DNA from: Pseudopedobacter saltans DSM 12145 | GTDB taxonomy: Bacteria; Bacteroidota; Bacteroidia; Sphingobacteriales; Sphingobacteriaceae | NCBI RefSeq assembly: GCF_000190735.1 | Contig: NC_015177.1 | Coordinates: forward strand, 3,100,001-3,164,000 | Reading direction: 5' to 3' | DNA length: 64,000 nt | Part shown: positions 10,964 through 31,990 of the stretch, one piece after another | Numbering within the stretch: the first letter of the stretch is position 1 | Layout: each line of letters opens with the position of its first letter | Program-made: the position numbers and the translations under genes | Notes under the pieces: model-generated | Databases searched by the model: none | Seen by the model: only the letters and a program-made list of their open reading frames with translations | Told to the model about the DNA's origin: nothing

Positions 10964-10993
10964 AATATTATTTGGTTTATAATTAATAATCTG

Positions 10994-12610
10994 TTATTTC
11001 TTAATGAGGCGTTGAGATTGCCCGCCTGATTTCAGCAAATATGAACCAGATTTCAAAAAACTTATATCCAGTTCATCTGTCACGAATACACCTTTTTTCA
11101 ATAGTTTACCGTCTATAGAAATTATTTCAAAAGAGGCATTTATTAAAGAAGGATTTACTTTAATATAATCCTGAGCAGGATTAGGGTAAATAGTCAAACC
11201 AACCAACCCGTTAGAACTAACTGCCTCTATATTACTAAATGTAACTGTTCCATCGTTGTCTACCATTTTAAGACGATAATAAATAGTCTTTGCTTCGGCA
11301 TTAAAATCAGTTAAATTATATATGTTACTTGATTGATTTTTTGCCGGCACTACCTTAACAGAATGAAAATTCTTTCCATCAATACTTTTCTCTAACACAA
11401 ATTCCTTTACATTAAGCTCATCACTAGTTGTCCATTTCAAAACCGCATTATTTCCAGATGAAGACGCCTTAAATGAGGTTAATTTTAGAGGTAATGTGCT
11501 ATATTGACTAGGAGAAAGTGCCACGCTTCGGAAAGTGTATTTATCGCCTGAAGTAGCTATTTGAACTATAGTATGAGTTCCATCCAATTTATCCCTCGAA
11601 CTGCTATTATCAATAATCTTAATCAACTCATTATTTAAAGTCGCTCCTCTTACTGCATACAACTCAGCTTTACCAGCTGCATTTATTTTCCCAGTTAGTC
11701 CGGTGATTATCCCGCTAGCATCTATTCTTCCTAAATAAACCCAACTAGATGTACTGGTGTCGTAATACATTTTGACAATTCCAGGACTAGTTCCTTGATC
11801 AGCCATATATAAAACATCATTTTTATCTGAAAGACTATTTACTGTATTGTCCTGATCAAGCAGTACAAACCCATAGCTCTTTTCTATATTACTACTACCG
11901 CTATTCCATAAAGCCGTTCCCGTAGTACTTGTAGGTGAAGTTGCTCCCGCATGTGGAGTTGAAGCATCATACGGAGATAAACCAAAATCTAAAAGTACAG
12001 CCGGATTAGCAGTATTAACACCGTACAAATGCTTTCCAATCACATTAAAATAATTAATAAATCCAGAATTATTAAATCTTATTGCAGGGGATGTTCTATT
12101 ATCGGGAAATGTAGTAGCTGCAATACCCTGATTGGTAGCTATATATATAGAGCTACCATCGTAACTCGCTGTAGACCTAATATATCCATTACTAATATTC
12201 GCATCTAAAGCAAATAGTTCAGGAACACCAGTATAACCAATTCTGGCGAAACTTTTCTTAGAAGGACCTGTGTCTCCGATTCCCTTATACGCATTTGAGC
12301 CACCAATCACCAAATATCTTCCATCGGCGGAAAGAGACAACCCTCCTTCAATTCCAGTTGGATTTATGTTAATAACCATTGAAGGATTTACAATATCTGC
12401 TGGGTCGGATGAAGAAGAGTAAGGCAATGTTACAGTAACAGTATTGCCATACGTTAAAGTATTGTATTCAAGGAGAGATACAGGTACAGCATTGTTAGTT
12501 GCCTGTCCATCTCCCAACCTAGCTACAACAACATTACCCGGAGTAAAATTTTGAGCAAAGCCTGCTCCTGCAGCTCCTAAGAGCAGTAAAGTAGTAAAGA
12601 TTTTTTTCAT
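10994..12610 (-). CDS. Secreted protein of unknown function with a type IX secretion C-terminal sorting domain
   Basis: The 538-residue protein begins with a Sec signal peptide (residues 1-19, AGFAQ). It ends with a type A T9SS sorting domain: LTIYPNPAQDYIKV near residue 475, then IDGKLLKKG and a terminal SGGQSQRLIKK. A fibronectin-like module with the common ALKWTTSDELNVKEFVLEKS pattern precedes it (about residues 395-465). The main part (20-380) has repeated beta-rich segments and may be a propeller, but I do not recognise the family. Position between GH16 and GH128 suggests a secreted glycan-binding or helper role. It is exported by a different route from the lipoprotein neighbours. Confidence 0.78.
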   Translation of the reverse strand: MKKIFTTLLLLGAAGAGFAQNFTPGNVVVARLGDGQATNNAVPVSLLEYNTLTYGNTVTVTLPYSSSSDPADIVNPSMVININPTGIEGGLSLSADGRYLVIGGSNAYKGIGDTGPSKKSFARIGYTGVPELFALDANISNGYIRSTASYDGSSIYIATNQGIAATTFPDNRTSPAIRFNNSGFINYFNVIGKHLYGVNTANPAVLLDFGLSPYDASTPHAGATSPTSTTGTALWNSGSSNIEKSYGFVLLDQDNTVNSLSDKNDVLYMADQGTSPGIVKMYYDTSTSSWVYLGRIDASGIITGLTGKINAAGKAELYAVRGATLNNELIKIIDNSSSRDKLDGTHTIVQIATSGDKYTFRSVALSPSQYSTLPLKLTSFKASSSGNNAVLKWTTSDELNVKEFVLEKSIDGKNFHSVKVVPAKNQSSNIYNLTDFNAEAKTIYYRLKMVDNDGTVTFSNIEAVSSNGLVGLTIYPNPAQDYIKVNPSLINASFEIISIDGKLLKKGVFVTDELDISFLKSGSYLLKSGGQSQRLIKK

Positions 12611-12638
12611 AAAATTTGATTTAGTTTATAAAAAAGAT

Positions 12639-12669
12639 GTCTCCTGCGTCCTGTAAAAACACAGGAGAC
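12639..12669 (-). promoter_or_regulatory. Hairpin between GH128 and the T9SS-exported protein gene
   Basis: An 8-bp perfect stem (12639-12646 with 12662-12669) and 15-base loop is followed on the minus strand by a T-rich run. It could be an attenuating terminator or a processing/stability element that sets lower or separate expression of the two distal genes. Confidence 0.5.
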
Positions 12670-12691
12670 CACCCTATATTTGGTTTCCGTT

Positions 12692-13564
12692 TTATCGTTT
12701 TATTTCGGTATTTGGTTTATAGTCGGAATACCACTTTCCGAGATTCGTCAGATTTCCATTCGCATCTACCAATGCAGAAGGCCAAAGTCTGGCACTGGTT
12801 GGCGAGCCTGAAAACCATGAATAACGATGTACAAAATCTAATGCTTCTAACTTAGGCAATAACCGCTGCATAAAAGCCAGTACAATTTCCGGAGTATAAG
12901 GATTTTCGGCCATAGTAGTAGCTTTTTCATGTACTGTTGCAAACTCGGTAATCCAAATAGGCTTATGGTATTTATCGTATAAGTCTTGAAGAATTTTTAC
13001 AAAATGATTCTCATCTATTCCCACATACATGTGTACCGCAATAAAATCTACACGTTTACCTTGTGCAATAGCTTTATCCATAAAATCATAAATCCAGGCA
13101 TTAGTTGGCCACGAAGCTGCCGGACTACCCAAAGGAAGTCCAATAGACTCTAATTGCGGCCAAAGATCCAAAGCTTCCTGAACGGTCATATTTGCCTGGT
13201 CTTTAAGGTCAGGCTCATTAAATCCCAGAATGTATTTCACTTTCCCTTCTGCTTTTAAAGCTTTTATCTGGGCTATATTCGCATCTGTCACAGAAGACTT
13301 GCCCCAAAACATTGGAACAAATTCTGAGTTCTGCGGAGCCAGCTCAAAGGGTATGGTTAATCCCCAGGTGTAAAACCAATGGCTTTGCAGATTAATCGTA
13401 TTCCCCCACCAGGTACCGTTTTTTGTTGAGGTACTAAAATCAGCTCCCTTTTTACCTTTCACTTCATAGGGAACGGGTTTAGATTTTTTAGGGATATATT
13501 CGTTGCTTTTTGCACATCCCAGCAATAATATACTGGCCAGAAATAATGCTTTAATATTTTTCAT
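12692..13564 (-). CDS. GH128-type glycoside hydrolase (Asl1-like catalytic domain) lipoprotein
   Basis: The lipobox LLGC gives Cys17 as the lipid anchor. Residues about 50-285 match the glycosyl hydrolase catalytic core of the Asl1/GH128 family: FWGKSSV, LGFNEPD with Glu117 as the likely acid/base, DFIAVHMY, and PIWITEFA with Glu207 as the likely nucleophile. GH128 members cleave beta-1,3-glucans, so this fits with the GH16 gene downstream. The length of 290 residues is normal for a single-domain member. Flanked by hairpins on both sides (13597-13647 and 12639-12669), which suggests that its mRNA level is set independently. Confidence 0.85.
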   Translation of the reverse strand: MKNIKALFLASILLLGCAKSNEYIPKKSKPVPYEVKGKKGADFSTSTKNGTWWGNTINLQSHWFYTWGLTIPFELAPQNSEFVPMFWGKSSVTDANIAQIKALKAEGKVKYILGFNEPDLKDQANMTVQEALDLWPQLESIGLPLGSPAASWPTNAWIYDFMDKAIAQGKRVDFIAVHMYVGIDENHFVKILQDLYDKYHKPIWITEFATVHEKATTMAENPYTPEIVLAFMQRLLPKLEALDFVHRYSWFSGSPTSARLWPSALVDANGNLTNLGKWYSDYKPNTEIKR

Positions 13565-13596
13565 CCGTTATTTATTAGCGTTTACAATTGATGCAC

Positions 13597-13647
13597 CGTG
13601 ACTGTTTAATGGCTTGGAATTTTTCTTTTGTACATTAAACAGTCACG
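13597..13647. repeat. Perfect 15-bp inverted repeat between two PUL genes
   Basis: Arms 13597-13611 and 13633-13647 are exact reverse complements separated by 21 bases. No T-run follows on either strand, so it is not a standard terminator. It sits between the stop of the GLUG-repeat lipoprotein gene and the start of GH128. An mRNA stability or processing hairpin is the most likely role. Confidence 0.6.
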
Positions 13648-13663
13648 TTACATTTAATTAAAA

Positions 13664-16480
13664 TTAATAAGTCCCATTATACCCCACATTCCTTAGTGTA
13701 GGATAACCGTCTGTTCCAATTTTCCATATTGAAAAATCGAAACCAAGAGTGCTTTCAAAAAATGCCTGATTGGTAACGGTTGCTGTTAAACCATCTAAAC
13801 CAGCCGCATCTTCAACAAATGGTACATCTCTAAAAGGAGTTACCACTCCTGATCCTACATAATTTTTCTTATTAGCTCCGGTTCCATTAGCTGCTGTACC
13901 GGAAATTCTGAATACACTATTAGCATTAGGAACAGTATTGGACCCTTCAAGGGAAGTACTTACCACAAAGCTATTTGCAGAATATCCGCTATTTTGATAA
14001 GTAGACGATAATCCGGCAACTGGCATTGCTGCAGTAGTAATTGAAGCTCTTAAAGTTGCATTCTTCACCACGCAATTTTCTAGCTTCACTTTATTGGTTC
14101 CTGCGATTCCACCAATATTTCCGGTGGCAGGTGTCCCTACTGCCCTAATTGTTGCAGTTGTTGTCTGACCTGCTCCTGCCCCTTCTACCAGGCAATTGGT
14201 AATGCTGGAACCTACTCCCGCAATACCCCCTACTGAGAAGCCACAAGAAATGGTACCGTCAAACATACATTGGTCTATAGGAACTATTCCCGCATTTTGA
14301 TCTGCTCCAAATATTCCTCCAACGCCATTTACAGTAGCTATTATAGCTGTTGTTGCTGAAATATTGACAGAGGATTTACAGTTTTTTATAATTCCACCAC
14401 CTATATTAGTGCCTTCTGCTCTTCCTAAAATACCAGCTATCCTATTTTTAGATCCACTAATTTCTATTGTTCCTGTCGCTGTTGAATTAGATATTTCTGA
14501 TATGCCAGATGAAGCTGTAGTCAATCTGCCAACCAAACCTCCTACCATACCACAAGCAGCCTTAATATTTAAGTTGGTATACACTTGAGTTAATCTCGCT
14601 ACGGCCGACATTTCACCAACAACCCCACCTAATATATCCCCTCCATTTGTAGAAGTAACATCTCCTGTTATCTTAACGTTTTGAATAGTTCCGCCAACGA
14701 GCTTACCCGCAAGTGTACCGAAAGCTAAGGTAGCATTACAATTCACATTCAGTAATTGGATGTTTTTAATCGTTCCCGTTACTGTTGCAAACAATCCTTC
14801 ATTGGCTGTTGTAGAATTAATGGTTAAACCAGTGATTTTATGCCCGGATCCATCTAATGTTCCTGAAAAATTAGTGATTGGTACCCATGGTTTAGTCAAT
14901 GCAAAATCCGTAACAACTTTATAATTTTTATCCATGCCCTGTGCTATGGCTATTAATCCATCTTCAGAAGATATTAAATATGGATTCCCAATCGTTCCAT
15001 CGCCACCGTCAAAGGCAGAGCCTTCTTGTTTAGCATATACTTTTATAGTTTTTGCTATTACTACATTACCTTTTTTCAAGTTCAATAATACATCTCCTGA
15101 AATAAATCCTGTAGCAGGTGTAAAAGTTACTTTTTGTCCGGCAATTGGAGTAGCGGTTAAGTTTGCCGGTGCAGATTTAACCTCTATTATCGCATCACTC
15201 GGACTAAAGCTAAATGTAGTTGTCGTAACTGTATTAATACCATATACTATCGCAGGAAAGGTATTTGGTATATTTAAGATGGTGTTATTAGTTTGAACAG
15301 AACCTGTATTCTCTTTAGCTGCAAGAGTAGCTACATAATTATCTCCAGAAACTGCCAAAGCCGTTACATCACCATTTGTCACTTTCCCAAAGTTATTAAC
15401 TGCAACTCCCGCTACATATTGTTTACCTTTCACGGTACCAGAAGCCTTTATATTGTCTATTGTACCTCTATTTGTTACAGCAACAAGGGCGACATTATTT
15501 TGTGCAGTTATGGCAGCATTTACAAATTCTACATTCTTAACCGTTGCCGAAGTTCCCAACTCATTAAATAAAGCAACATTATCTGTTGTAGCATTATTAA
15601 ATGTCAGGCCCGATATTTTTTTAGTATTTCCGTCCAGCGTCCCTGTAAATACTCCTGAAATAGGACTGAATCCTGCACCTGCGATGTCACTGGAAAGTTT
15701 ATAATTATAAGCTAAACCATACCTTACTTTATTTAATCTTGCAAAGTCGCTAATTTCATAAGGTTTTGATGTTGTACCATCACCGTTGGAAAACGCCACC
15801 ACTTTTATCGTCTTCACTACTTCCGGAACTTGTAAAAACTTAGCTTTTATAACAACATCGCCCATCACAAATTCATCTGTAGCTAATAACTTTAATACCT
15901 TGTGGTCATCATCAGCACCATTTTCTATACTTGCCGTTAAACCTGCTGATGCCGTAATTTCAAATTCTGTAGAACGCGGATAAACTGTAAATGTTCTTGA
16001 CACTTCGCCTACAGCATTGTACAATACGTCTTCAGATAAATCTAAGGTAATAGCGCTTACGTTTGGCTTATCTACAAACAATTTAGTGTTAAGTACGTAA
16101 CTTTCTCCGTCTATCTTCACCTTTATAATCATAGTAAACACGCCCTCATACTTCGGCTTTCCCTTTATAGGTACATCCACAGCAGTACCTGTTAAAAGAA
16201 TTTTCTGTTCTTCTATATAAACTCCATTAACTTCCTCGGCACTTACAATAGCCTCGTTATTCTTAGGCGGATTAACGAACACCATATTAAACTTATTCGC
16301 CTCCGTAAGTGACATATTCTCTACCACATTTCCGGTTATTCGTGATTTTTCGGAATAGATTTGAAATCTACCATCAGATACTGAGTAATATCTGTCGTTA
16401 TCTTTTTTACAACTTCCTATCAATACCAGCAACAATAAGGCTAGCACAGGAAAATTCTTTATAAAACTTATACTTTTCAT
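13664..16480 (-). CDS. Large surface lipoprotein with Ig-like and GLUG-type beta-helix repeats
   Basis: The 938-residue product has the lipobox IGSC (Cys24) followed by CKKDN, an acidic-type +2 region common in surface lipoproteins. Residues 25-225 look like beta-sandwich modules. From about 230 onwards there are repeated segments of the pattern LDGnxxxIxGLxxN ... AxIKNVxFVN ... GxVxGxxxVGGxxG. These resemble the GLUG-motif repeats that form right-handed beta-helices in adhesins. Two such blocks are interrupted by an Ig-like insert (about 395-475). It occupies the SusE/SusF-like position after SusD, so a cell-surface glycan-binding role is inferred, not shown. Confidence 0.75.
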   Translation of the reverse strand: MKSISFIKNFPVLALLLLVLIGSCKKDNDRYYSVSDGRFQIYSEKSRITGNVVENMSLTEANKFNMVFVNPPKNNEAIVSAEEVNGVYIEEQKILLTGTAVDVPIKGKPKYEGVFTMIIKVKIDGESYVLNTKLFVDKPNVSAITLDLSEDVLYNAVGEVSRTFTVYPRSTEFEITASAGLTASIENGADDDHKVLKLLATDEFVMGDVVIKAKFLQVPEVVKTIKVVAFSNGDGTTSKPYEISDFARLNKVRYGLAYNYKLSSDIAGAGFSPISGVFTGTLDGNTKKISGLTFNNATTDNVALFNELGTSATVKNVEFVNAAITAQNNVALVAVTNRGTIDNIKASGTVKGKQYVAGVAVNNFGKVTNGDVTALAVSGDNYVATLAAKENTGSVQTNNTILNIPNTFPAIVYGINTVTTTTFSFSPSDAIIEVKSAPANLTATPIAGQKVTFTPATGFISGDVLLNLKKGNVVIAKTIKVYAKQEGSAFDGGDGTIGNPYLISSEDGLIAIAQGMDKNYKVVTDFALTKPWVPITNFSGTLDGSGHKITGLTINSTTANEGLFATVTGTIKNIQLLNVNCNATLAFGTLAGKLVGGTIQNVKITGDVTSTNGGDILGGVVGEMSAVARLTQVYTNLNIKAACGMVGGLVGRLTTASSGISEISNSTATGTIEISGSKNRIAGILGRAEGTNIGGGIIKNCKSSVNISATTAIIATVNGVGGIFGADQNAGIVPIDQCMFDGTISCGFSVGGIAGVGSSITNCLVEGAGAGQTTTATIRAVGTPATGNIGGIAGTNKVKLENCVVKNATLRASITTAAMPVAGLSSTYQNSGYSANSFVVSTSLEGSNTVPNANSVFRISGTAANGTGANKKNYVGSGVVTPFRDVPFVEDAAGLDGLTATVTNQAFFESTLGFDFSIWKIGTDGYPTLRNVGYNGTY

Positions 16481-16495
16481 AACGCTGCTTTTTTG

Positions 16496-17410
16496 TTATG
16501 GTCTTTGATAACCTTTTCTAATTAATGTATACTGATCTCTCCACAATGAAGCGGCTCTTGAGGCCGGAGCAGTCTCGTAATGGGTAACTACCATTTCATT
16601 CTCATTGATAGAGTTGATTTCATACTCAATTACATTGGAAATTCCTCTATAGAAAAAGAAGAACGCGCCACCTTTTAATTGCAAATAGTGCTTACCACCC
16701 CTAATTTCCATTTCCCAATGCTGAACCGCATCTTTTGGTGTATAATTGATCATTAAATCCCCGCCATCTGCAGTAGAAGAAGTTACGGTTCCCCAATTGG
16801 CATTCAGTTCTTTTAATCGGAATTGAGTTACCCCATCTATAGTACCACCATGACAATAAGAGTTTCCATTATTTTTGTATAAACATTCTTTTCCAGCCAG
16901 TTTAAAGGTTAACTCATCATCATACACCCCTTTATTGGTCTTTGCTAATTTATTCCATGGCGTGGTAGAGCCATTATTAACCAGCTTAACATGACCATCA
17001 ATTAAAGAATCCAACACCCATGTTTTTCCGTTGGTGGCATTTGGCCCTCCTGTTAAAAAACCATAAACAGGATCAAGGTCGAGATTATCATTTTTGAATG
17101 ATATCTGGATTGATTTATCTACAATCTTGATTCCGTTAAATACCGATAATTTCACGGTATAGTTTCCTTTAAAAGGATATTTGCCTATTACTGTATCACC
17201 AACAGCCTCTTCACTATTCCCCAGGTTCCACTTTGCTTTGGCAGTATTACCTATTTGCCCGTTAATGAAACGATAGACATTTGGCGTTTCCGTTTCCTGG
17301 ACGATGATATTGATATCCTCTTCTGCTATAGGATCTTCCAAACTGATGCTTTTCTTACAGGCTGATGCTGAAAAAAGCACTATTGCCATGATTAAAAATA
17401 TATTCTTCAT
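16496..17410 (-). CDS. PKD-type lipoprotein of the PUL (putative surface glycan-binding protein)
   Basis: The lipobox SASAC gives Cys18. Residues about 25-110 show a PKD-like sandwich (AKWNLGNSEEAVGD, KGNYTVKLSVFNG). Residues 115-304 form a second beta-rich domain with several Trp and Tyr residues and two Cys (KECLY, NSYCHG). This arrangement recurs directly after susD in many Bacteroidota PULs, where such proteins bind the target glycan. The gene lies 12 bases downstream of susD and 15 bases upstream of the GLUG lipoprotein. The exact ligand is not evident. Confidence 0.75.
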   Translation of the reverse strand: MKNIFLIMAIVLFSASACKKSISLEDPIAEEDINIIVQETETPNVYRFINGQIGNTAKAKWNLGNSEEAVGDTVIGKYPFKGNYTVKLSVFNGIKIVDKSIQISFKNDNLDLDPVYGFLTGGPNATNGKTWVLDSLIDGHVKLVNNGSTTPWNKLAKTNKGVYDDELTFKLAGKECLYKNNGNSYCHGGTIDGVTQFRLKELNANWGTVTSSTADGGDLMINYTPKDAVQHWEMEIRGGKHYLQLKGGAFFFFYRGISNVIEYEINSINENEMVVTHYETAPASRAASLWRDQYTLIRKGYQRP

Positions 17411-17422
17411 GTTATACCTCTT

Positions 17423-18985
17423 TTAGAAATAACCTTTGTTTTGTGACAAAGTATATTTAGCATTAATGATTTCCTCTTGTGGAATTGGGAATAAACCTTC
17501 TGCATCCATATTAAACTTGCTGATAAATGGCTCCCCTCTGTTGATGTCTATTTTAGATTTTGCATAATCTAAACCTCTTCTCATCAGATCCCAATATCTT
17601 ACTCCTTCCAAAGCCAATTCTAATTCACGTTCTCTATACAATACATCCAGTGTAACTGTTGGAGCAACATAGCCTGCCTGATGTGCCCGTTTAGCTACTT
17701 TTTCAAAATACGTTTGTGCCTTTGCAGCGCTCCCTCCATGTAAAAGGTTAAGTTCTGATGCCATCAACAACACATCCGAAAAACGGATAGCAATAAAATG
17801 GTTAGGGAAATTCAATCTAAAATCACCTCTTGTAGCTTGATTTGCCTTTAATGCCATCCATTTCTTAGGAAAGATATCGGTGTTCTGATAGCCGGGCGTA
17901 AAAGAAACAGAAATGTTTTTAGGCAATAAAAATGTCGCATCTTTTCTCAGGTCATCATTTGGAAAGCTATTATAAAATTCTGCATCTATAGGTGCAAAAG
18001 ACCATCCCGCTGAAAATATCGAAGCCGAATTAGGATCGCGTGGGGCCCATAACATTACTGCTAAATTACCATTCGCTTCTTCTCTGTAGCTAAAGTTTCC
18101 ACTGTTTGCTTTGGATGAATATTGGATTTCGAATACCGACTCTTTATTGTTATGATTAAAAGGAGCATCATTTACAAATACATCCGAAAATTTTGGTAAT
18201 AAATCGTGTCCGCTTTGATTTATCACCTTTTCAGAGATATCCAATATTTGCGTAGACGATACATTGGGCATTTCTGCTTTCTTGTAATAACCTGTGTAAT
18301 ACAACCAAACACGCATTAGAAGTGCTCCTGCGGCATCCGAAGTTACCCTACCATACTGGTCGGCAGGTAAATCTTTATAATGTGGCAGTACGTTAATCGC
18401 TGCCAATAAATCATCACCTATTTGTTTATATACCTCTTCTGGTGTTGCTTGTTTTTGGTTATACTCCGATGGTGCTAGTGTTTTTAATATTAATGGTACA
18501 TTTCCAAAAAGGCGCACCAAATCAAAATAATAATATGCCCTCAAAAACTTCGCTTCGGCGGCGTACCTTTCCCTCAGTTCGGGTTCGTCAAAAGTTGCTG
18601 CCGGCAATTTCTCCAACAAAATATTGGTTCTATAAATACCATAATAATATTTATACCACATTGCTTTAGGCGTCAAATCATCGGTACGTATTATCCCTCT
18701 GTCCACACGCAATAATGCTGGTAAGTCAGTAGCCGAAGCACCTCCGGTAAAGCATTTATCACCCAACACCTCGCTAATTAACTGGAATGGAGCATTCTGG
18801 TTTTGTGGCGCATCCCACAAAAGCACATTGTATGCCGCCGCCAATCCCTGAAAACAGTCTTTTTGGTCTCTATAAAAGTTAGCTTCAGTATCCGAAGCTA
18901 TCGGATATAAATCTATCTTTTTATTGCAAGCACCCAAGCTTAAAACCAGGGTGAGCATAGACAATTTTATATATTGAAATTTCAT
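17423..18985 (-). CDS. SusD/RagB-family nutrient-binding outer-membrane lipoprotein
   Basis: The 520-residue protein has a lipobox SLGAC (Cys20) and the SusD layout. It has an N-terminal KIDLYPIASDTEANFYRDQKD, a helical TPR-like scaffold with AEAKFLRAYYYFDLVRLFGNVPL (around residues 140-160), and a C-terminal RERELELALEGVRYWDLMRRGL segment followed by LFPIPQEEI. It caps the SusC transporter and binds the oligosaccharide at the cell surface. It begins 20 bases after susC and is the second of the canonical pair. Confidence 0.95.
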   Translation of the reverse strand: MKFQYIKLSMLTLVLSLGACNKKIDLYPIASDTEANFYRDQKDCFQGLAAAYNVLLWDAPQNQNAPFQLISEVLGDKCFTGGASATDLPALLRVDRGIIRTDDLTPKAMWYKYYYGIYRTNILLEKLPAATFDEPELRERYAAEAKFLRAYYYFDLVRLFGNVPLILKTLAPSEYNQKQATPEEVYKQIGDDLLAAINVLPHYKDLPADQYGRVTSDAAGALLMRVWLYYTGYYKKAEMPNVSSTQILDISEKVINQSGHDLLPKFSDVFVNDAPFNHNNKESVFEIQYSSKANSGNFSYREEANGNLAVMLWAPRDPNSASIFSAGWSFAPIDAEFYNSFPNDDLRKDATFLLPKNISVSFTPGYQNTDIFPKKWMALKANQATRGDFRLNFPNHFIAIRFSDVLLMASELNLLHGGSAAKAQTYFEKVAKRAHQAGYVAPTVTLDVLYRERELELALEGVRYWDLMRRGLDYAKSKIDINRGEPFISKFNMDAEGLFPIPQEEIINAKYTLSQNKGYF

Positions 18986-19005: not shown

Positions 19006-22000
19006 TTAAAACCCTACTGATGCACCCAACATAATGGTTCTTGGCTGCGGATAAACACCTTTATCAATACCTAAACCTAAAGCACCTCCAGAAACTTCAG
19101 GATCAAATCCAGTATATTTAGTTAAGACAAATAAATTGGTCCCCGAAGCGTAAACTCGTATTTTGTCTATTTTAGCTGCTTTTATATTTCTGAAGGTATA
19201 GCCAATAGAAGCATTCTTTAATCTCAAGAAGCTTCCTTCTTCCAGGAAGAATGTAGATGGATTGGTAAAATTCCCATTCAAATCACCCGCAGCCACTCTT
19301 GGATATGAATTAGTGGTTCCCTCTCCATGCCAACGATTCATGATTTCAACCGGGAAATTTGCTGTCAGTAAATCCCATCTATGCAAACTATTAAAGATTT
19401 TATAATCTGCCAAACCATTAAAGAATACATTGACATCCAGATTTTTATAGCGGGCATTTAGATTTAAACCATAGTTATATTTAGGATGTGGAGACCCTCC
19501 CATAGATCTGTCTTTACTGTCTATGATGCCATCTCCATTCAAATCCTTAAATCTGATATCTCCCGGAACAGCATTAGGCTGGATTAACTTTCCATCTTTC
19601 TGGTGTGCATTAACCTCTGCCTGATTCTGGAAGATCCCATCCATGGTATATAACCAGAAATAACCAAGCGGGTAACCTGCTTCCATGCGAGCGATATCTC
19701 CCATTTGATTATTGGCATTACCGCCCATTAAATACCCATTTGAATTCCCGACAAGGGTTACTTCATTATGATTATAGGCTCCGTTTATAGTAGCATCAAA
19801 ATAGAACTTACCAAAATCTTTTTGATAACCTAAAGACAGTTCTATCCCTTTATTTACCACACCACCTGCATTTCCCCATGGCTGAGCATTTCCTGCGTAC
19901 AATGGTATAGGTATACGCAATAAAAGACCTTTGGTAGACTTCTTGTATAAATCGAAGGTTAATTTGAAATCTTTAAGAAATTCTGCGTCGATACCTATAT
20001 TGGCTTGCTCTGAATTTTCCCACTTAAGATCTTGGTTTGAAACACCACTTGGAGAGGCTCCAATTTGTTGAACATCTGAACCAAAGTAATAGTTTCTTGC
20101 ATAAGTACTTATTGTTGACAGATATCTAAAATCTTCAATTTGATCGTTCCCTGTCCCTCCCCAACTAGCTCTTAGTTTTAAAGAGTTGATTTGATTAACA
20201 TTTTGCATGAAATTTTCCTTGTGAATATTCCATCCAGCAGATACTGAGGGAAAATAACTAAACTTGTTATTCTTACCAAATCGATACGATCCATCCACTC
20301 TATAGGTTGCGGTCATCATGTATTTATTATCATAATCATAGTTTACACGACCGAAGTAAGAAACAAACCCACTCTCCCAAGCAGTTCCCGAAGCAGTCGC
20401 ACTCGTATTGTCCTTTGCTGCACTTAGATAAGCAAACTCTGGATCGTCATACAATAATCCATTTTTCGATGCGGACACATTGGATCCATACCCTGTATTC
20501 ACCGTATTTCCCAACATAGCTGTTAGAGAATGTAAATTGATTTTTTTGGTATAAGTCAGAATATTATCTATATTCAGATACTTGCTTTCTGCCATAGATT
20601 TACTGGCACCTGTAGCAATAGTTTTATTCGTAGAATTTAAGTAATAAATGGGGGTATAACCTCTTCCTTCATCATACTGCAAAGAAGCTCCAATACTGGT
20701 TTTAATCTTCAGTCCTTTTAAAATTTGTAGCTCTCCAAATGCATCTGCATACATTTTTGTATAACCCGAAGATCCATTGGTATAGTAAATTCTTGCTATA
20801 GGGTTTACAATTTCCTGAGCAACATAACGTGATATGGCAAAGGTTCCATCATCATTCATTACCGGAGTCACTGGATCCATATTTATGGCACTTAAAATAG
20901 GGCCAGAATTACCACTATTGGTAGCTATAGATGCTCTTTTCACATTGGTTACACTCAAATTTACTCCTGTATTCAATAAACCTTCAATTACATTTTGCTT
21001 GGTATTGATACGGCCAGTGTATCTCTCAAAATCAGATTTTCCTTTGGCAATTGTTCCCGATTGCGAAAAATAAGAGAATGAAGAAGCATAAGATGACTTT
21101 TCATTTCCACCAGTTAAAGAAACCTGATGATTCTGAATAGGTGCATTCAAGTAAGAAACCTCACGCTGCCAATCTGTTCCTTTTCCCATTTTCTCTATTT
21201 CTATTTCTGAAAAAGGAAGTGGTAAATTGGAATTAAAATGCAATTCATTTTGGATTCTCGCGTATTGGGTTGCATCCAACACATCCACATACTTTCTGAT
21301 ATTCTGAAATCCACGATAATATTCATAATCTAACTTAGTTCTACCTGCTTTTCCAGATTTTGTAGTGATGATAACAACTCCATTTGCTCCACGAGCACCA
21401 AAAATTGCTGCAGACGCTGCATCCTTTAGCACTTCCATCGTTTCAATATCCCTTGGATTTACCGCTTCCAGATCTCCTCTTGGAAATCCATCTACAATAA
21501 ATAAAGGATCATTACTACCATTGGTCCCAACACCTCTGATTCTGATACTTACCCCAGAACCTGGTTGACCGCTGTTCATCATAACTGTTACCCCAGCTGT
21601 CTTTCCCTGAATAGCCTGATCTGCCCGCATCAAGCCGGGTACTTCCAAATCTTTTGGCGTTAAAGAAGCAATAGCACCTGTTACTAAGCTCTTTTTTTGT
21701 ACTCCATAACCTATAACAACAACGCTTTCCAAATCCTGCACACTTTTACTCATCATAACGGTTACATCCGTTTCATTTTTCAGGACCATTTCTTTACTTT
21801 TCATCCCCACCGTTGTAAAAACTAAAGTTGATGATCCCTGCGGTACTTTGATACTGAATTTTCCATCAATATCGGTCATAGTACCTCCACTGGCACCTTT
21901 TACCGTAACAGCAACACCGGGTATAACCGAACTATCCTCAATGTCTTTTACGACTCCTTTTACTGTTCTAGCCTCTTGCGCATGGGTAGTAAAAGCTACA

Positions 22001-22056
22001 CACATGAGACTGACCAGGAAACAGAAACATGAAAACTGTTTAATTTTGATTCTCAT
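19006..22056 (-). CDS. SusC/RagA-family TonB-linked outer-membrane transporter (no STN domain)
   Basis: This 1016-residue protein has a signal peptide ending at THAQ (residue 27). A carboxypeptidase-regulatory-like beta-sandwich follows (about 32-110: VKGVVKD ... TDIDGKFSIKV), then the TonB box region VVVIGYGVQKK (about 113-123), the plug (to about 230, containing the RIRGVGTNGSNDPLFIVDG pattern) and a 22-strand barrel ending in MLGASVGF. There is no secretin/TonB N-terminal (STN) domain, so it is not expected to signal to a FecR anti-sigma factor. That fits regulation by the 7TM protein upstream instead. It imports oligosaccharides released by the PUL enzymes. Confidence 0.95.
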   Translation of the reverse strand: MRIKIKQFSCFCFLVSLMCVAFTTHAQEARTVKGVVKDIEDSSVIPGVAVTVKGASGGTMTDIDGKFSIKVPQGSSTLVFTTVGMKSKEMVLKNETDVTVMMSKSVQDLESVVVIGYGVQKKSLVTGAIASLTPKDLEVPGLMRADQAIQGKTAGVTVMMNSGQPGSGVSIRIRGVGTNGSNDPLFIVDGFPRGDLEAVNPRDIETMEVLKDAASAAIFGARGANGVVIITTKSGKAGRTKLDYEYYRGFQNIRKYVDVLDATQYARIQNELHFNSNLPLPFSEIEIEKMGKGTDWQREVSYLNAPIQNHQVSLTGGNEKSSYASSFSYFSQSGTIAKGKSDFERYTGRINTKQNVIEGLLNTGVNLSVTNVKRASIATNSGNSGPILSAINMDPVTPVMNDDGTFAISRYVAQEIVNPIARIYYTNGSSGYTKMYADAFGELQILKGLKIKTSIGASLQYDEGRGYTPIYYLNSTNKTIATGASKSMAESKYLNIDNILTYTKKINLHSLTAMLGNTVNTGYGSNVSASKNGLLYDDPEFAYLSAAKDNTSATASGTAWESGFVSYFGRVNYDYDNKYMMTATYRVDGSYRFGKNNKFSYFPSVSAGWNIHKENFMQNVNQINSLKLRASWGGTGNDQIEDFRYLSTISTYARNYYFGSDVQQIGASPSGVSNQDLKWENSEQANIGIDAEFLKDFKLTFDLYKKSTKGLLLRIPIPLYAGNAQPWGNAGGVVNKGIELSLGYQKDFGKFYFDATINGAYNHNEVTLVGNSNGYLMGGNANNQMGDIARMEAGYPLGYFWLYTMDGIFQNQAEVNAHQKDGKLIQPNAVPGDIRFKDLNGDGIIDSKDRSMGGSPHPKYNYGLNLNARYKNLDVNVFFNGLADYKIFNSLHRWDLLTANFPVEIMNRWHGEGTTNSYPRVAAGDLNGNFTNPSTFFLEEGSFLRLKNASIGYTFRNIKAAKIDKIRVYASGTNLFVLTKYTGFDPEVSGGALGLGIDKGVYPQPRTIMLGASVGF

Positions 22057-22102: not shown

Positions 22103-23320
22103 TCAATCTAGATTTAATCCCAATGCCTTAATATAGCCTTGATTTGGCTCACAATTTTTATATTTTATATTTTCTAAATATTGCTTTAGAATTTTTTTAA
22201 TCGCGGCTCTATCTACTTTTAGCTCACGAATTTCTTTATAAGAACCTCTGTTTGCTTCGGCATAATCGATAAGTATCTGATAATTGTCGGGTAACTGCAC
22301 AGAGCTTATATTTTTAGGGCTATCCAGTTTTTTGTATGGCCAGAAATGCCATCCAATATTATGTTTTTCTAATAATTCGCGGAACTCTCTTACCCATTCA
22401 TCTGTATTCTCACCGGTTTCACCAATATAAATTGGTGCATTGAATTTATCTCTGAACTCTATGAAACGTTTAATAGAGCCGAAGTCTGGCTTATCCCCAT
22501 ATTTATGAAAAGTATAAACTGCATTTTTATCCAGGAGTTCAGAGAATATATTGAAGTTCGTATTCCATTGTGACCCACCATAAAATATAATATGGTTTTT
22601 ATCTACACTTCTGATAGCCGCTGTCATTTCCTTATATAATGGAACAATCAGCGGATTAAGCGTTTTAGAATCGAAATAATGTGCTACCGGTTCGTTTAAT
22701 AAATCATAACCTATAATAATAGACTCTTTAGCATATCTTTTTGCAATACTTCTCCATATGTCAATCGCCAGCTTTTGATCTTCCTTACTTTCAAAAAGAA
22801 AGGGATAACCGTAACCATCGTCAATATTATCTCCTGTTTGGCCGCCCGGCGCACAATGCATATCCAAAATCACATAAACTCCTTCTGCTTTACACCAGGA
22901 AATAACTCTATCAAGTAGTTTAAAACCACGGGAAGCATCGTTTCTTCCCATGTAATCTTCAACCGTAAAAAGCTTATAGTTAAAAGGAACTCTGATAGAA
23001 TTTACCCCCATTTTCTTTAAAGACCTGATATCGTCGTGTGTGATATAATTCTCTAAAAAAGTATCCCAAAATTTGGCTGCCTCCGTTGGACCAATCAACT
23101 GTCCCAACATGTCGTGAATCATATACGGAGAATTCGTTCTTTTAAACTTGAACATATAGCCCTCGGGAACCAACCAGTTTCCTAAATTTGTTCCTTTTAT
23201 TAAAAAGGGCTTACCATTTGGGTCAACAATCTCTTTCCCTTGTACACTAAAGAACTTATCTCTTGCGTTCAGGGAAGCGACTGCAAAAAATAGGGTTATG
23301 GTAAAAAGTAACTTCTTCAT
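22103..23320 (-). CDS. GH5-family glycoside hydrolase (exo-beta-1,3-glucanase/endoglucanase type)
   Basis: The 405-residue enzyme has a Sec signal peptide (residues 1-19) and one GH5 barrel. Visible signatures are GTNLGNWLVPEG (43-54), SIRVPFNY (108-115), the LLNEP motif with Glu210 as acid/base, and the IGETGE motif with Glu301 as nucleophile. The NLGNWL start resembles yeast Exg-type beta-1,3-glucanases, which supports a beta-glucan PUL, although GH5 covers many specificities. It lies between GH2 and SusC with 19- and 46-base gaps, so it is co-transcribed. Confidence 0.85.
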   Translation of the reverse strand: MKKLLFTITLFFAVASLNARDKFFSVQGKEIVDPNGKPFLIKGTNLGNWLVPEGYMFKFKRTNSPYMIHDMLGQLIGPTEAAKFWDTFLENYITHDDIRSLKKMGVNSIRVPFNYKLFTVEDYMGRNDASRGFKLLDRVISWCKAEGVYVILDMHCAPGGQTGDNIDDGYGYPFLFESKEDQKLAIDIWRSIAKRYAKESIIIGYDLLNEPVAHYFDSKTLNPLIVPLYKEMTAAIRSVDKNHIIFYGGSQWNTNFNIFSELLDKNAVYTFHKYGDKPDFGSIKRFIEFRDKFNAPIYIGETGENTDEWVREFRELLEKHNIGWHFWPYKKLDSPKNISSVQLPDNYQILIDYAEANRGSYKEIRELKVDRAAIKKILKQYLENIKYKNCEPNQGYIKALGLNLD

Positions 23321-23339: not shown

Positions 23340-25187
23340 TTATTTATATTTCTTAGCTAATTCGTCGTAATATCCCTTTAGTACATAAAATGCCTTTTTC
23401 TTTCTGCCCTGATGGTCATAAAGCCCTTTATTGTTCCACCCTTCCTGATAAACAGGATTATTTCTTCTCGGCGATCTAAAATCAGCCAATATCCACGGGG
23501 AAATCCCAATGAAATTTGATGGCATCCGCTTTAACATATCTACTTGTTCTTTATAGTACCATTCCTGAAATTCCTCACTCCACAACTGTTTGGCATCTGC
23601 ATTAAATCCACCTACAGCTTCTGCTCCCGTTTCGCTGATAAACAATGGCTTTTTATAATGAGTTCCCCAGTTTGCTGTTCTGCAACTTTCTGGCGTTCCG
23701 CCATACCAGCCTAAATATTGGTTAAAAGAAACAATATCTACATAAGCTCCTAGTGGATCATCAATCCACCTCATATTCTCTTCTGAATGATAATTCACTT
23801 CTAATGCCGCAGAAACTAACCGAGTAGGATCTTGCTTTCTCGCTTCCGCCAATAGATTTTTCATAAAATTGGTTCTTACTTCACTTACCGGAGTTTCATT
23901 TCCAACCGACCAAATAATAATACTCGCTCTGTTTTTGTCTCTATCGATCATTTCATCCAACTGAGTTTTTGCTTTTTCAAACACTTTATCGCTGGTAAAA
24001 TCAATAGTCCAGTAAACTGGGATTTCTGACCATACTAATAACCCCAGCGAATCTGCCAAACGGGTCATTTTTTCATCATGTGGATAGTGTGCTAAGCGGA
24101 CCATGTTGCAACCTAATTCTCTTGCCCATCCAAGCAATTGATTAGCGTCCTTTTGTGTATTGGCTCTTCTACCCTCCTGTGGAATTTCGGAGTGTATGCT
24201 GATCCCTCTTAAAAAAAGAGATTTGCCGTTTAATAAAACTTTCTCTCCCTGCACCTCGATATTTCTAAACCCAATCTTTTCACTTACCTTATCTGCTTTA
24301 CTGCTAATATTTACCTGGTAAAGTTTAGGATTTTCTAAACTCCATAATTTAAGTTTAGGTGCGTTAATCTTCACTTCTGCTCTTCCCGCAGCATTTACCG
24401 TAAATTTTTGATTGATTTTAAGTTCTGGTATTTCTACATATACCTCTTCGTTTGCTTTCGCATTTTTAACTTCAACCCAGCCTTCTATTAAATTAGATTT
24501 TGTATGAGGTTTTGCCAGCTGGATAAAGTAATTGCTGATGAACTGATTTGGAACTTCTACCAGAGATACATCTCTGATAATACCTCCATAATTCCACCAA
24601 TCTGTATTTAGGGTTGGAATTTCATCTGCATATCTCCTATTATCTACTTTAACTACTAAAAAATTGTCCTTTTCTTTCAAAAGGGATGACGGGATTTCAA
24701 AATTGAAAGGACTGAATGCTCCTTTATGCATTCCAAGTTTTTTGCCGTTTAAATATACATCTGCTCTATAACTAACGGCTCCAAAATAGACGTATAACTT
24801 GTTATTCGTATCTGACTTTTTATAGTCAAAGCTTTTTTTGTACCAAACAGTCCCTTCATAATACAGGAACTTATCGGCTTGTGAATTCCAGTCTCCGGGA
24901 ACATTAAGCGTATACTTATCATTGTAACCATGCTCTTTTCTATCTAAGGAGTTTGCCGGAACATCGGTATTCCAATAAGCCTCCGGATCTTTCTCTGCCC
25001 GCTCTCTGTATCTATAATCATAAAATCCGGTTTCATAAATGTCAATAATGTATTGCCATTTTCCGTTAAGGCTTGTTGTCTTCCGATTTGGAATATTGGT
25101 TATCAGATCTGAACTTATTGCTGAAGTTTTAACAAAAATCAGCACAAGCAGCAACAGAAAACATTTGAAATGTAGTTTTTGCATCAT
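23340..25187 (-). CDS. GH2-family glycosidase, beta-glucuronidase-like
   Basis: The 615-residue protein has a signal peptide (residues 1-25) and the GH2 order: jelly-roll sugar-binding domain (about 35-210), Ig-like domain (215-315) and TIM barrel (315-610). Acid/base is Glu431 in SVGNET and nucleophile Glu519 in FISETG. Near the C-terminus WNNKG (584-588) provides an N-x-K pair (Asn585, Lys587) equivalent to the Asn-x-Lys that grips the carboxylate in beta-glucuronidases. The length also equals that class (about 600). I therefore prefer glucuronidase over galactosidase or mannosidase. It is the first enzyme gene of the PUL, 293 bases downstream of the receptor gene. Confidence 0.82.
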   Translation of the reverse strand: MMQKLHFKCFLLLLVLIFVKTSAISSDLITNIPNRKTTSLNGKWQYIIDIYETGFYDYRYRERAEKDPEAYWNTDVPANSLDRKEHGYNDKYTLNVPGDWNSQADKFLYYEGTVWYKKSFDYKKSDTNNKLYVYFGAVSYRADVYLNGKKLGMHKGAFSPFNFEIPSSLLKEKDNFLVVKVDNRRYADEIPTLNTDWWNYGGIIRDVSLVEVPNQFISNYFIQLAKPHTKSNLIEGWVEVKNAKANEEVYVEIPELKINQKFTVNAAGRAEVKINAPKLKLWSLENPKLYQVNISSKADKVSEKIGFRNIEVQGEKVLLNGKSLFLRGISIHSEIPQEGRRANTQKDANQLLGWARELGCNMVRLAHYPHDEKMTRLADSLGLLVWSEIPVYWTIDFTSDKVFEKAKTQLDEMIDRDKNRASIIIWSVGNETPVSEVRTNFMKNLLAEARKQDPTRLVSAALEVNYHSEENMRWIDDPLGAYVDIVSFNQYLGWYGGTPESCRTANWGTHYKKPLFISETGAEAVGGFNADAKQLWSEEFQEWYYKEQVDMLKRMPSNFIGISPWILADFRSPRRNNPVYQEGWNNKGLYDHQGRKKKAFYVLKGYYDELAKKYK

Positions 25188-25317
25188 CTAAAAATTCTGA
25201 GTGTTTCTAAAAATTATAATTGATCGATTGGATATCGGGACAAATATTCTAAAACACCTTCAAAAAAACAAATAGCAAAAACACATAAAACACTGATTAC
25301 TAGAATATTAAATCAAA

Positions 25318-25333
25318 AATAATACGTATTATT
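25318..25333. promoter_or_regulatory. Perfect 16-bp palindrome, candidate operator upstream of the PUL enzymes
   Basis: AATAATACGTATTATT reads the same on both strands. It lies 131 bases upstream of the GH2 start and 148 bases after the receptor gene stop, inside the 293-base spacer that should hold the PUL promoter. A second, weaker inverted pair (ACCCCT 25357-25362, AGGGGT 25391-25396) lies nearby. Operator function is inferred from position only. Confidence 0.45.
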
Positions 25334-25480
25334 ACCACAACAACTTTCAGGCATTAACCCCTGATAATCAGCACTAAATGAACGGTAATAAGGGGTATAG
25401 GATTAATTATTTAACACGCCTCAATAAAATTTAATTTATTTACGATTTATCTCTCAAAAAGCGCGGCTGGGTATTTATAT

Positions 25481-27343
25481 TCATGCAAAAACCAATTTGT
25501 TCCATCCGTCTTCTCCTGCGCCCTTAAATTCTTTTTTTCTTTCCTGCATCAGCGATTTTATCTTATTAAGGTTTGCCCAGCAGGTTGCCTGCCTTAGCTC
25601 TAAAATCTCGGCAAGCTTATAGGATGATATTTTACCCTTGGTGGTATAAACGATGTACACCATATAAAACGCTTTATTTAGTGGGATTCTACTATTTTGA
25701 AAAATTGTTCCGTTAATCACGGACTCTTCATAATCGCAAGAAGCACATCTTTTGCTATAAGGCTGATGTCCCACATAAAAATCAGTATGATTGCATTTTC
25801 TGCATTTAAAGCCTCTTTGTTCTTTTAACTCGTGTAAAAATTTAACACATGTTTCGTTATCAGGGTAAATTTTAATGAATTCTTCGTAACTAAGGATTTT
25901 AGACATTACGCGAGCTTCTGTAACTTCTGTAATATTCTTCTTTAGCTCTGTGTTGTCTATAGATAGCAATTCATTCATTTTGCGAATCGCTTCGGCCTGC
26001 ACCAAAAGCTCTTTATTTTGAGCTTCTATAATTTCAGACTTTTCTAATACCTCTCTCGTTCTTAAAGCAACTTTATTCTCCAGTTCTACATTTAATTTGT
26101 CTTTAAGCTTTTGCTTAGATTCTAATTCCTGAATAATTCTCTTTTGTGCCTTTTCCTTCTTCTTCTTTAACAGGCGTATATTATCACCAATGGCAAAAGT
26201 CACAAAAAGCATCTCCATAATTAAGCAGAAGCTTAAACTATAAAAATTGGCAGGACCAAAAGGCATTTTTCCAATATTTAATACTTTAATGATCCTGATG
26301 AGTATTCCAAGAAAAATAAAAGAATATCCTGCGACAAAGAATCTTGCGGGATAATATCCTTTTCTAAGAATTACAATTCCCGAGATGAGCGCTAGTAGTA
26401 CCGGAATTACTTCTATAACCTTATAAACAAACCAATGATTATTGATAAAAAGACATATCAGAAAGAAAACAGTTCTGAGACTAAGGTAACTTAAGATGAT
26501 TTTGTCTAGAACCGGAACTTTATGTTTTAAATGCAGAAATTCTCTGGTAAACAGCATACTGAATATAGCAGCGAGATAAAGTGCTACACCATACGCTATT
26601 TCGTTCCATCCCGGAGAACCAGGCCAAAGATATTGAAACCCTATTCCGTTAGAGCTTATTTCGAACATGCCTATACTTAGATTATAGAGCACATAAAACA
26701 GATACTGTTTTTGCCTGACAGCGAGAAACATGACGAGGTTGTAAAGACAGAATACGAGTATCATTCCATATAAAACTCCCAAAAGCACATATTCTCTCAA
26801 CCCGTACTGAATGAACCAATTTACTTTTTTGAGTACAATCATAACTGCCGCGGGTTGTTCTGTTTTAACGGCTATATAATATGTCCTGTCTCCTTCAAAC
26901 CTGCGATTGACATTAAAAGTGAAGTTCTTATGGTGAATTTGTCGTTTCTCAAAGGGAAGCTGGGCCCCGAATTGATGAAGGCGAAAAGAACCTGGTTTGT
27001 TTTGATAGTATATTCTTATGTCATCAATTGTCTGATCATAAAATTCAAGCAAGAAAGCTCCTTTAGCATTCGTATTTTCCAGCCTTATTTTATACCAGTA
27101 GGTGGATTTACTATTTGATGTTTTTGGAACAAAAGTTCTACTGCTTTTAAAACTTGCATCAAATTCTGCTGAAGATATATTACCGATATCTAACTTTCCT
27201 GTCTTATCCTCGAATACTTTTATCTCATTATAAGAAAGAATGTGTTGCTTCGTCTCTGAATCCAGTTTAACTATTTCCTGACAGGTTACAGTTCGGCAAA
27301 TTGTTATGATTAGAAAAAATAATACGGATAAAAATTTAGACAT
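25481..27343 (-). CDS. 7TM-DISM membrane receptor fused to an IS1595-transposase-type zinc-ribbon/HTH output domain
   Basis: The 620-residue protein has four parts. A signal peptide (1-21) is followed by an extracytoplasmic 7TMR-DISMED2-like sandwich (25-175), with TYWYKIRLEN and RTYYIAVKTEQ typical of that domain. Seven hydrophobic helices span about 182-388. A long coiled coil follows (390-475). The C-terminal domain (480-610) has CRKC (514-517) and CASC (533-536) and then SVINGTIFQNSRIPLNKAFY, which closely resembles the zinc-ribbon N-terminus of IS1595/ISXO2 transposases. An HTH-like segment lies at 570-600. The DDE nuclease of those transposases is absent. It is best read as a one-component, membrane-bound transcription regulator heading the PUL. 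Confidence 0.85.
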   Translation of the reverse strand: MSKFLSVLFFLIITICRTVTCQEIVKLDSETKQHILSYNEIKVFEDKTGKLDIGNISSAEFDASFKSSRTFVPKTSNSKSTYWYKIRLENTNAKGAFLLEFYDQTIDDIRIYYQNKPGSFRLHQFGAQLPFEKRQIHHKNFTFNVNRRFEGDRTYYIAVKTEQPAAVMIVLKKVNWFIQYGLREYVLLGVLYGMILVFCLYNLVMFLAVRQKQYLFYVLYNLSIGMFEISSNGIGFQYLWPGSPGWNEIAYGVALYLAAIFSMLFTREFLHLKHKVPVLDKIILSYLSLRTVFFLICLFINNHWFVYKVIEVIPVLLALISGIVILRKGYYPARFFVAGYSFIFLGILIRIIKVLNIGKMPFGPANFYSLSFCLIMEMLFVTFAIGDNIRLLKKKKEKAQKRIIQELESKQKLKDKLNVELENKVALRTREVLEKSEIIEAQNKELLVQAEAIRKMNELLSIDNTELKKNITEVTEARVMSKILSYEEFIKIYPDNETCVKFLHELKEQRGFKCRKCNHTDFYVGHQPYSKRCASCDYEESVINGTIFQNSRIPLNKAFYMVYIVYTTKGKISSYKLAEILELRQATCWANLNKIKSLMQERKKEFKGAGEDGWNKLVFA

Positions 27344-30429: not shown

Positions 30430-30735
30430 TCAATATTTTAATATCCATTCGTCATCACTATGCTTATAATGTTTAAACTCATAGCCGTCATAACGGTTCA
30501 GCCCGTCTTCGGTTCCCATCCAGATATAACCCTCACGATCCTGGATCATACACAGAACCACATTTTGTGATAATCCGTCGTTAATCGTAAGATGTTTAAA
30601 CTTAAGCTGAGCTTTTGATACCTGCGGTACAACAAGTATCAGAACGAACAACACGAGATGAATTAACCGAACAATAGGCTTGTATTTGAGCATTAGTGTG
30701 TTTAGATTCTTCAGGTTGGAACCTAATTTATGCAA
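30430..30735 (-). pseudogene. Remnant of a hybrid two-component sensor (HTCS): signal peptide plus first propeller blade only
   Basis: The 101-residue frame has a signal sequence (ending near KAQ) followed by LKFKHLTINDGLSQNVVLCMIQDREGYIWMGTEDGLNRYDGYEFKHY, the unmistakable first Reg_prop blade of a periplasmic HTCS sensor, a protein usually around 1300-1400 residues long. After HYKHSDDEW it stops. No propeller, histidine kinase, receiver or AraC domain follows. A terminator starts 8 bases downstream, which suggests an internal deletion joined the 5' end to the native 3' end. The neighbouring esterase/oxidoreductase/DUF1080 genes may have been its targets. Confidence 0.75.
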
Positions 30736-31689: not shown

Positions 31690-31990
31690 TAATAAATACA
31701 ATTTTGATTTAAATATAATCATTTGATTCCTTTTGTACTTAGACAAATTTCGCTTTAGATCACAATCATTCGTAAGTTCTAATATCTAAAAGCAAATCAA
31801 TTTTGATTATAAAAAAATTAATAAGTTATTTTATTCTTTTTAAAAATGTAGCATTGTTTGTTTTTATTAAGCAAATTATTAAATTCATGTCATCATAGCC
31901 ATTTAAACTTTAATTTACTGAAAACTACCAGTTGTCATGGAAAATAAATCGACTAAACCTATTCAAAATATTAACAACAAAAATGTAAAA

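Follow-up and report, generated by a model that had tools for sequence, protein, structure and literature searches.

A widespread family of 7TMR-DISM receptors with a transposase-type output domain: probably a new kind of gene switch responding to sugars

Receptors of the 7TMR-DISM type usually end in a kinase, cyclase or phosphatase. A 7TMR-DISM protein that binds DNA is not in itself a new idea, since the ChiS-family DNA-binding domain is described in one architecture together with 7TMR-DISM in the available part of PMC8092284; that domain is a different one, a cryptic HTH variant judging from the title, and the same part of the source indicates no relation to IS1595 (PMC8092284). Among regulators of glycan loci, hybrid two-component systems (HTCS) and ECF-sigma/anti-sigma pairs sense a glycan and switch on glycan genes, including those of SusC/D-type transporters, according to the excerpt available of PMC10766802, and SusR of Bacteroides thetaiotaomicron is presented in the accessible passages of PMC11216935 as an inner-membrane-spanning transcriptional regulator of a glycan locus.

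The receptor studied here is encoded in a 64,000-nucleotide stretch of DNA from Pseudopedobacter saltans DSM 12145 (the window). As proposed, it would resemble SusR, as portrayed in those passages (PMC11216935), in using one protein from sensing to DNA. Its proposed job is the same as that of HTCS and ECF-sigma systems, but Pfam and NCBIfam gave no match to histidine kinase, receiver or sigma domains in the window receptor. SusR, to our knowledge, is neither a 7TMR-DISM protein nor transposase-derived. The window receptor has the same periplasmic and membrane domains as other 7TMR-DISM receptors (PF07695/PF07696; RetS-type), whereas its output is a transposase-type DNA-binding module and not a kinase, cyclase or phosphatase. 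The closest counterpart of that module is the N-terminus of IS1595-family (ISXO2-like) transposases, which shares the zinc ribbon, the GTIF-type segment and the HTH (PF12760 plus the HTH segment of NF033547); unlike these transposases, the protein lacks the DDE part and carries the module C-terminal to seven-helix receptor and coiled-coil parts.

No earlier description of a transposase-derived output with an operator was found in the literature searched. Searches that included domesticated transposases, 7TM/HTH receptors and PUL regulators yielded no transposase-derived 7TMR-DISM output with an operator among the matches listed, subscription journals lying outside the coverage. Of the matches listed for 7TMR-DISM, transposase and Bacteroidetes together, none contained 7TMR-DISM; those listed for 7TM-DISM and PUL contained only the PUL terms; and those listed for the letters AAGCGTATCA included none on glycan loci by title. 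The work matched by Zn_Tnp_IS1595 concerns Merlin transposons, and the 7TMR-DISM passages available from PMC5342196 and PMC1592074 do not deal with this receptor class.

Domain architecture and output module of the receptor

The receptor gene (25481..27343, minus strand) begins with ATG and encodes 620 amino acids that join a 7TMR-DISM sensor to an IS1595-type zinc ribbon/HTH output domain. A 7TM-DISM sensor followed by seven helices and a coiled coil had been read from the letters alone in the original prediction; the sensor and membrane domains were confirmed by Pfam, and the coiled coil is probable in the structural model. The periplasmic 7TMR-DISMED2 domain (residues 40-171; 26831..27226, minus strand) was matched with E 2.7e-29 and 102.3 bits and the membrane domain, 7TMR-DISM_7TM (residues 184-387; 26183..26794, minus strand), with E 4.3e-42 and 144.8 bits, both above the curated cut-offs, and PF07695- and PF07696-type receptor domains were found in 13/13 members of the family alignment. 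Foldseek places the sensor fold close to the RetS periplasmic domain 3jyb (E 9.3e-6, TMt 0.76). An AlphaFold2 model of the whole receptor (13-row alignment, mean pLDDT 76.8) continues after the membrane domain into helices 368-453 and 461-481, and these long, probably coiled-coil helices form the linker from membrane to output domain (residues ~388-481; 25901..26182, minus strand). Model confidence is low at 449-481, which would allow cleavage by a protease, and the output domain might then be freed from the membrane and act on the operator as a soluble factor; nothing in the sequence demands cleavage, however, and this route is held to be unlikely. From the domain order given by Pfam, NCBIfam and the model, sensor and putative DNA-binding domain sit in one membrane protein.

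The output domain consists of a zinc ribbon with CRKC at 514-517 and CASC at 533-536 (25736..25804, minus strand; sequence, family alignment and model) and a three-helix HTH at residues 555-601 (25541..25681, minus strand; AlphaFold2 models). Both cysteine pairs and the GTIF...RIPL segment that had been pointed out beforehand are present, the latter as GTIFQNSRIPL. The four cysteines are invariant in the 13-member family alignment, and it is from them that zinc binding by C514/C517/C533/C536 is inferred. NF033547, the NCBIfam model of IS1595 transposases, matches residues 550-607 with its positions 1-59 of 215 (E 7.6e-7), with a score of 29.2 bits that lies below the curated cut-off of 75. PF12760 is weak in the window protein (10.4 bits against a cut-off of 25.4), and a second receptor in the same genome passes that cut-off with 25.8 bits. 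Across the alignment, NF033547 is matched at E<=0.001 in 12/13 members and PF12760 at E<=0.01 in 11/13, the window protein not being among the 11. No match to the DDE catalytic domain (PF12762 or full NF033547) was obtained in the window protein with Pfam and NCBIfam.

The output domain shares 39-43% identity over ~120 residues with transposase N-termini (ten copies listed for genome G457), and two scanned sister proteins from that genome are true transposases, with PF12760, PF12762 and a near-full NF033547 match above cut-off. A domain tree was computed from 130 columns by a quick method with midpoint rooting, 91 domains being left of 247 after removal of near-copies. Forty-one receptor rows, 14 transposases and four short frames fall in one starred 59-row clade. 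The 41 receptor rows need two label changes in this tree, and one origin is not ruled out. On a reduced set of 54 of the 91 rows (32 receptor and 22 other), a single receptor clade was not rejected (AU p 0.73), and the log-likelihood of the constrained tree was 8.8 higher. The inner details of the tree are unresolved because of the few columns. As judged from these alignments, the receptor output domains group with IS1595 transposases in a manner compatible with one origin. The profiles, the identity with the G457 proteins and the tree grouping all support the original prediction that the C-terminus is an IS1595-type N-terminal module without DDE, for which failure to group with IS1595 zinc ribbons would have counted as refutation. 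A chance match of the C-terminus to transposases is ruled out by the family-wide PF12760/NF033547 matches together with the tree grouping.

Modelled alone from an 89-row alignment, the output domain shows zinc-ribbon strands and helices (AlphaFold2 pLDDT 90.7). Sequence searches of the PDB gave generic zinc ribbons at best (E 0.0064); by fold, no Foldseek match reached 0.001 and the best VIA Z was 4.5 among 321 chains, so the fold shows nothing beyond the common HTH arrangement. Two further groups of relatives were seen. Frames of 154-203 aa that consist of a zinc ribbon and HTH alone, with no DDE domain, form a starred clade (L161 in G465, L164 in G516 and L165 in G501) and are possible further domesticated regulators. 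Genome G457 contains 19 diversified IS1595-type transposase matches (loci L148 and L308-L329), multi-copy relatives of the receptor output domain.

Distribution of the receptor and its linkage to SusC/SusD loci

A match at E<=0.001 is present in 135/301 genomes of the same family. Receptor-length members remain in 110/301, as 25 weak-match genomes, which gave only frames up to 366 aa, mostly of transposase length, were excluded. Across the phylum, 57/395 genomes gave any match and 11 of the 57 a receptor-length frame (620-718 aa). Among named genomes, 238 loci were confirmed, and the best 80 of them match over nearly the whole receptor; these 80 come from Pedobacter, Mucilaginibacter, Dyadobacter, Chitinophaga and others. 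Twelve relatives align to the window protein with 42-51% identity. The architecture is thus far more widespread than had been supposed, and a one-off gene fusion or pseudogene is ruled out by the receptor-length members in 110/301 family genomes. A longer architecture was also seen: an open frame of 1101 aa, 7 kb away from another receptor, contains a second receptor-type output domain (G031:C12:1003171-1003590).

In the window, the receptor is followed on the minus strand by genes for a glycoside hydrolase family 2 protein (23340..25187), which is the first gene after the putative operator, a GH5/cellulase-family protein (22103..23320; Pfam), a SusC/RagA-family TonB-dependent transporter (19006..22056; TIGR04056, 862 bits) and a SusD-family protein (17423..18985). 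SusC is therefore not the next gene, the GH2 and GH5-type genes lying between. Further co-oriented genes (9668..17410, minus strand) encode a PKD-like protein (weak, below cut-off), a Peptidase_M26_N/GLUG-matching protein, a Glyco_hydro_cc (GH128-type) protein, a protein with a secretion sorting tail and a GH16 protein. Going by the usual activities of the GH16, Glyco_hydro_cc (GH128-type), GH5 and GH2 families, the substrate of the locus may be a beta-1,3-glucan. The window SusC has plug and CarboxypepD_reg domains by Pfam and, as had been predicted, no STN match in 19006-22056; absence of STN is common among SusC proteins and unremarkable here. Elsewhere in the window, a 101-aa frame (30430-30735, minus strand) resembles by eye the start of a regulator-propeller hybrid sensor, is apparently truncated and adjoins an esterase-type gene (30769-31746), and a deoxyhypusine synthase family protein (6459-7439, minus strand; PF01916, E 3.3e-42) is encoded, in a bacterium.

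Linkage to SusC/SusD was assessed in 60 genomes with profiles built from the window's own SusC and SusD genes, each genome contributing one 20-kb receptor region and, as its control, a region of the same contig at a distance of 100 kb. A SusC/SusD tandem is present in 41/60 receptor regions and 9/60 paired controls, with 33 discordant pairs favouring the receptor and one the control (p 4e-9). This bears out the expectation that relatives adjoin SusC/SusD genes (PUL), lack of such association having been named in advance as grounds for refutation. In 31/41 regions SusC shares the receptor's strand and begins within the first kilobase after it, mostly after a gap of 170-670 bp, and SusD then follows. 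The tandem is also found in 53 of the best 80 named loci, some of which end at contig ends; the named and paired sets overlap. One receptor group, with many members from Mucilaginibacter, has other genes downstream. The second receptor of the window's genome has 42% output-domain identity and is followed by GH2 and GH88-type genes, behind which a Reg_prop/Y_Y_Y/LuxR-type regulator is encoded (L298:10556-13405).

A conserved signature downstream of receptor genes

Seventy receptor-to-SusC spacers and the window's own were examined, which reduced to 62 non-redundant spacers (61 and the window's). The strict pattern [AG][ACG]CGTAT[CT][AG] occurs twice, as direct copies 74-96 bp apart, in 48/62; the spacing is 90-92 bp in 36/48 and 76-79 bp in 9/48, and the strict pair is missing from 14/62 spacers, the window's among them. 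The logo of this site, A, is GGTATTnAAGCGTATCA (96 sites, two direct copies per spacer), and a G stands at -8 in 96/96 sites although the search pattern did not require it. A second element, B1, of the form ATCA[AG], lies between the A sites in 41/48 spacers, 54-55 bp after A1 in 33 and 43-44 bp in 6. B2, an ATCA/ACAG element, was found in 35 of the 48 when 23-37 bp was searched, and lies 31-32 bp after A2 in all 35. One example of the B elements, CTGATTATCAG, is an odd palindrome. Downstream of A2, the pattern TTG-N17-22-TAnnTTT[GA], which we take to be the Bacteroidota -33/-7 promoter, is present in 34/48 spacers and in 0/48 on the reverse complement, with the TTG at a distance of 56-59 or 67-68 bp from A2 except in two of the 34; the two distance classes are about one helical turn apart. 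The spacers of L052 and L191 each contain, in addition, an inverted pair of cores; the two cores touch in L052 (AGCGTATCATGATACGCT) and are separated by a few bases in L191.

The window's own spacer (25188-25480), which the original prediction had suggested as a target, lacks a strict site, and no strict double site occurs in its genome. All of its putative elements lie on the minus strand; A1 and the B elements were placed by eye from an alignment with four relatives (L033, L143, L037 and L034). They comprise A1, a diverged copy TTGAGGCGTGTTAA (25411..25424); B1, GTGCTGATTATCAGG (25360..25374), with its ATCA 55 bp after the A1 core; A2, GTGGTAATAATACGTATTATT (25318..25338), with a PWM score of 9.2 and its core 92 bp after that of A1; and B2, TAGTAATCAGTG (25291..25302), with its ATCA 31 bp after the A2 core. 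On family statistics, a putative promoter (25241..25271) has its TTG at +57 from the A2 core and AATATTTG, near the consensus TAnnTTTG, ~20 bp further. The spacings (A1-A2 92, A1-B1 55, B1-A2 37, A2-B2 31 and TTG +57) equal the family values. The best PWM score of 9.2 was reached by 33/5000 dinucleotide shuffles, none of the 33 having ATCA at +31/32. The sequence of the window spacer has drifted and its sites are degenerate, but the positional layout is that of its relatives.

The signature was then sought in 60 non-redundant held-out stretches, with receptors that have no SusC in the first kilobase and that were not used for the matrix. A site scoring >=12 lies within 1 kb downstream on the same strand in 29/60 held-out loci, against 3/60 on the opposite strand and 2/300 control windows, and a pair at 70-100 bp is present in 18/60; the signature thus recurs where the next gene is not SusC. 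The second receptor of the window's genome has a site scoring 22.3 right after its gene. No site >=12 was found within 1 kb downstream in 31/60 held-out loci, and several of the receptors without a site have a SusC/SusD tandem 6-9 kb upstream, with its promoter outside the examined DNA. Upstream of the receptor, only 4/60 held-out loci have a site >=12 in 1 kb on either strand, giving little support to autoregulation through an upstream copy of the same site. Upstream of 16 control-region SusC/TonB genes, with up to 700 bp searched, the best score was 2.5, which rules out the signature as a general SusC promoter element.

The controls and the held-out loci also bear on a further explanation, that the signature came down with the locus merely as a conserved promoter/leader cassette and has nothing to do with the output domain. 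Distances between operators are correlated with those between output domains, sensors and SusC proteins (r 0.61, 0.71 and 0.65), as vertical descent predicts. Against a cassette, the sequence between the sites varies in the receptor-to-SusC spacers while sites and spacings are kept, and the pair is found where the next gene is not SusC and is missing before the 16 control SusC/TonB genes; the explanation is regarded as very unlikely.

Genome-wide, 52 receptor genomes were scanned (51 of the 60 and the window's), with 76 receptors after two short frames (162 and 299 aa) were left out. The strict double site occurs 50 times, in 35/52 genomes, and the reversed-pattern control only once. Of the 50 double sites, 29 follow a receptor on their own strand at <3 kb, against a random expectation of ~0.02; 8/50 lie further off but within 30 kb of a receptor, and 13/50 elsewhere, far from any receptor. 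Among receptor-free genomes, 8/41 have one double-site match each, a rate that scales to ~10 in 52 genomes and is thus near the 13 remote double sites. With training sites counted, the 60 receptor regions contain 132 PWM matches >=12, compared with 19 in as many control regions.

A real operator might still be bound by a different transcription factor, in which case the receptor would act on that factor or merely share its operon, and the zinc ribbon/HTH would contact protein or RNA. Such a factor would be consistent with the lack of covariation specific to the output domain and operator: given sensor distance, the partial correlation between operator and output domain is -0.12 (p 0.93, 48 loci), whereas that between operator and sensor given output domain is 0.48 (p 0.0005, 48 loci). 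Operator divergence therefore follows the whole receptor phylogeny, with no sequence evidence of co-adaptation beyond linkage, although the test is limited by the high conservation of the HTH region. The B elements resemble a site for a second kind of recognition, and some divergent receptors lack the known signature, no site >=10 being found downstream of eight loci from more distant families (L145-L147 and L150-L154; up to 1.5 kb available). However, double sites cluster immediately downstream of receptors (constant neighbours other than SusC/SusD were not surveyed) and occur only at a low rate in receptor-free genomes, the site recurs before genes other than SusC, and the domain fused to the receptor derives from a transposase DNA-binding module. 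Binding by another factor is accordingly considered rather unlikely, and reading of the signature downstream of many receptor genes by the output domain itself is most likely, binding being inferred.

It is doubtful, though possible, that a single mobile element supplied both the output domain and the operator, the receptor having captured an IS1595-type end-binding domain and the operator being derived from, or selected to mimic, the terminal inverted repeats of that element. Elements encoding output-domain relatives have an end reading TTTAGGCGTAA in G457, and one in G119 has TTTAGAATAAGGCGTTT, compared with TTTAAGCGTATCA in the operator. Among the arms of sister-clade elements with recognisable terminal repeats, 10/32 show similarity to the operator core at p<0.05 when scored against other windows taken from the same DNA, whereas 0/18 arms of other IS1595-type elements do so. 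The arms were hand-picked from listings, with 11 of the 19 G457 copies used; the 10 scoring arms include 9 non-independent ones from G457, and usually one arm of an element scores without the other. Common origin is thus a lead and not a result, and the resemblance is only suggestive of a terminal-repeat origin of the operator.

Proposed mechanism and meaning for the family

The original reading of the window receptor is supported, and the family is likely to consist of membrane-embedded one-component activators of glycan loci whose transposase-derived DNA-binding domain reads an operator downstream of the receptor gene. The domain homology, the absence of DDE, the family spread, the PUL linkage, the signature with its promoter-proximal layout and its co-location with receptors were computed. 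In the proposed mechanism, the periplasmic carbohydrate-binding-like domain would sense a glycan breakdown product and pass the signal through the seven membrane helices and a dimeric coiled coil to the zinc ribbon and HTH. From the membrane, the output domain would bind the operator just downstream of the receptor's own gene, composed of two A sites and two ATCA-type B elements. Between the last B element and the -33 box of the promoter that serves the next operon (SusC/SusD or glycoside hydrolases) lie ~25-37 bp. A tethered dimer would read the two A sites and activate a promoter whose -33 box starts ~57 or 67 bp after A2. Activation from a fixed helix face, itself an inference, would agree with the constant A2-B2 distance and with the two promoter distances that differ by one turn. 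In the absence of binding or expression data, binding of the receptor to the signature, the sign of regulation, dimerisation, zinc, ligand and tethered action are likewise inferred.

The usual descriptions of glycan-locus regulators in Bacteroidota cover HTCS, ECF-sigma/anti-sigma pairs and SusR-type proteins, to which the receptor would add a class with a defined operator. If the proposal is true, the defined operator would make target promoters readable directly from sequence in this Bacteroidota family and its relatives, and ligand, receptor and operator could be tested together. In bacteria, the family would also clearly exemplify a membrane receptor that acquired its output domain from the DNA-binding module of a transposase, and its many loci would offer material for asking how a protein tethered to the membrane gets to its DNA. 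This widespread receptor family is probably a new type of sugar-responsive gene switch.
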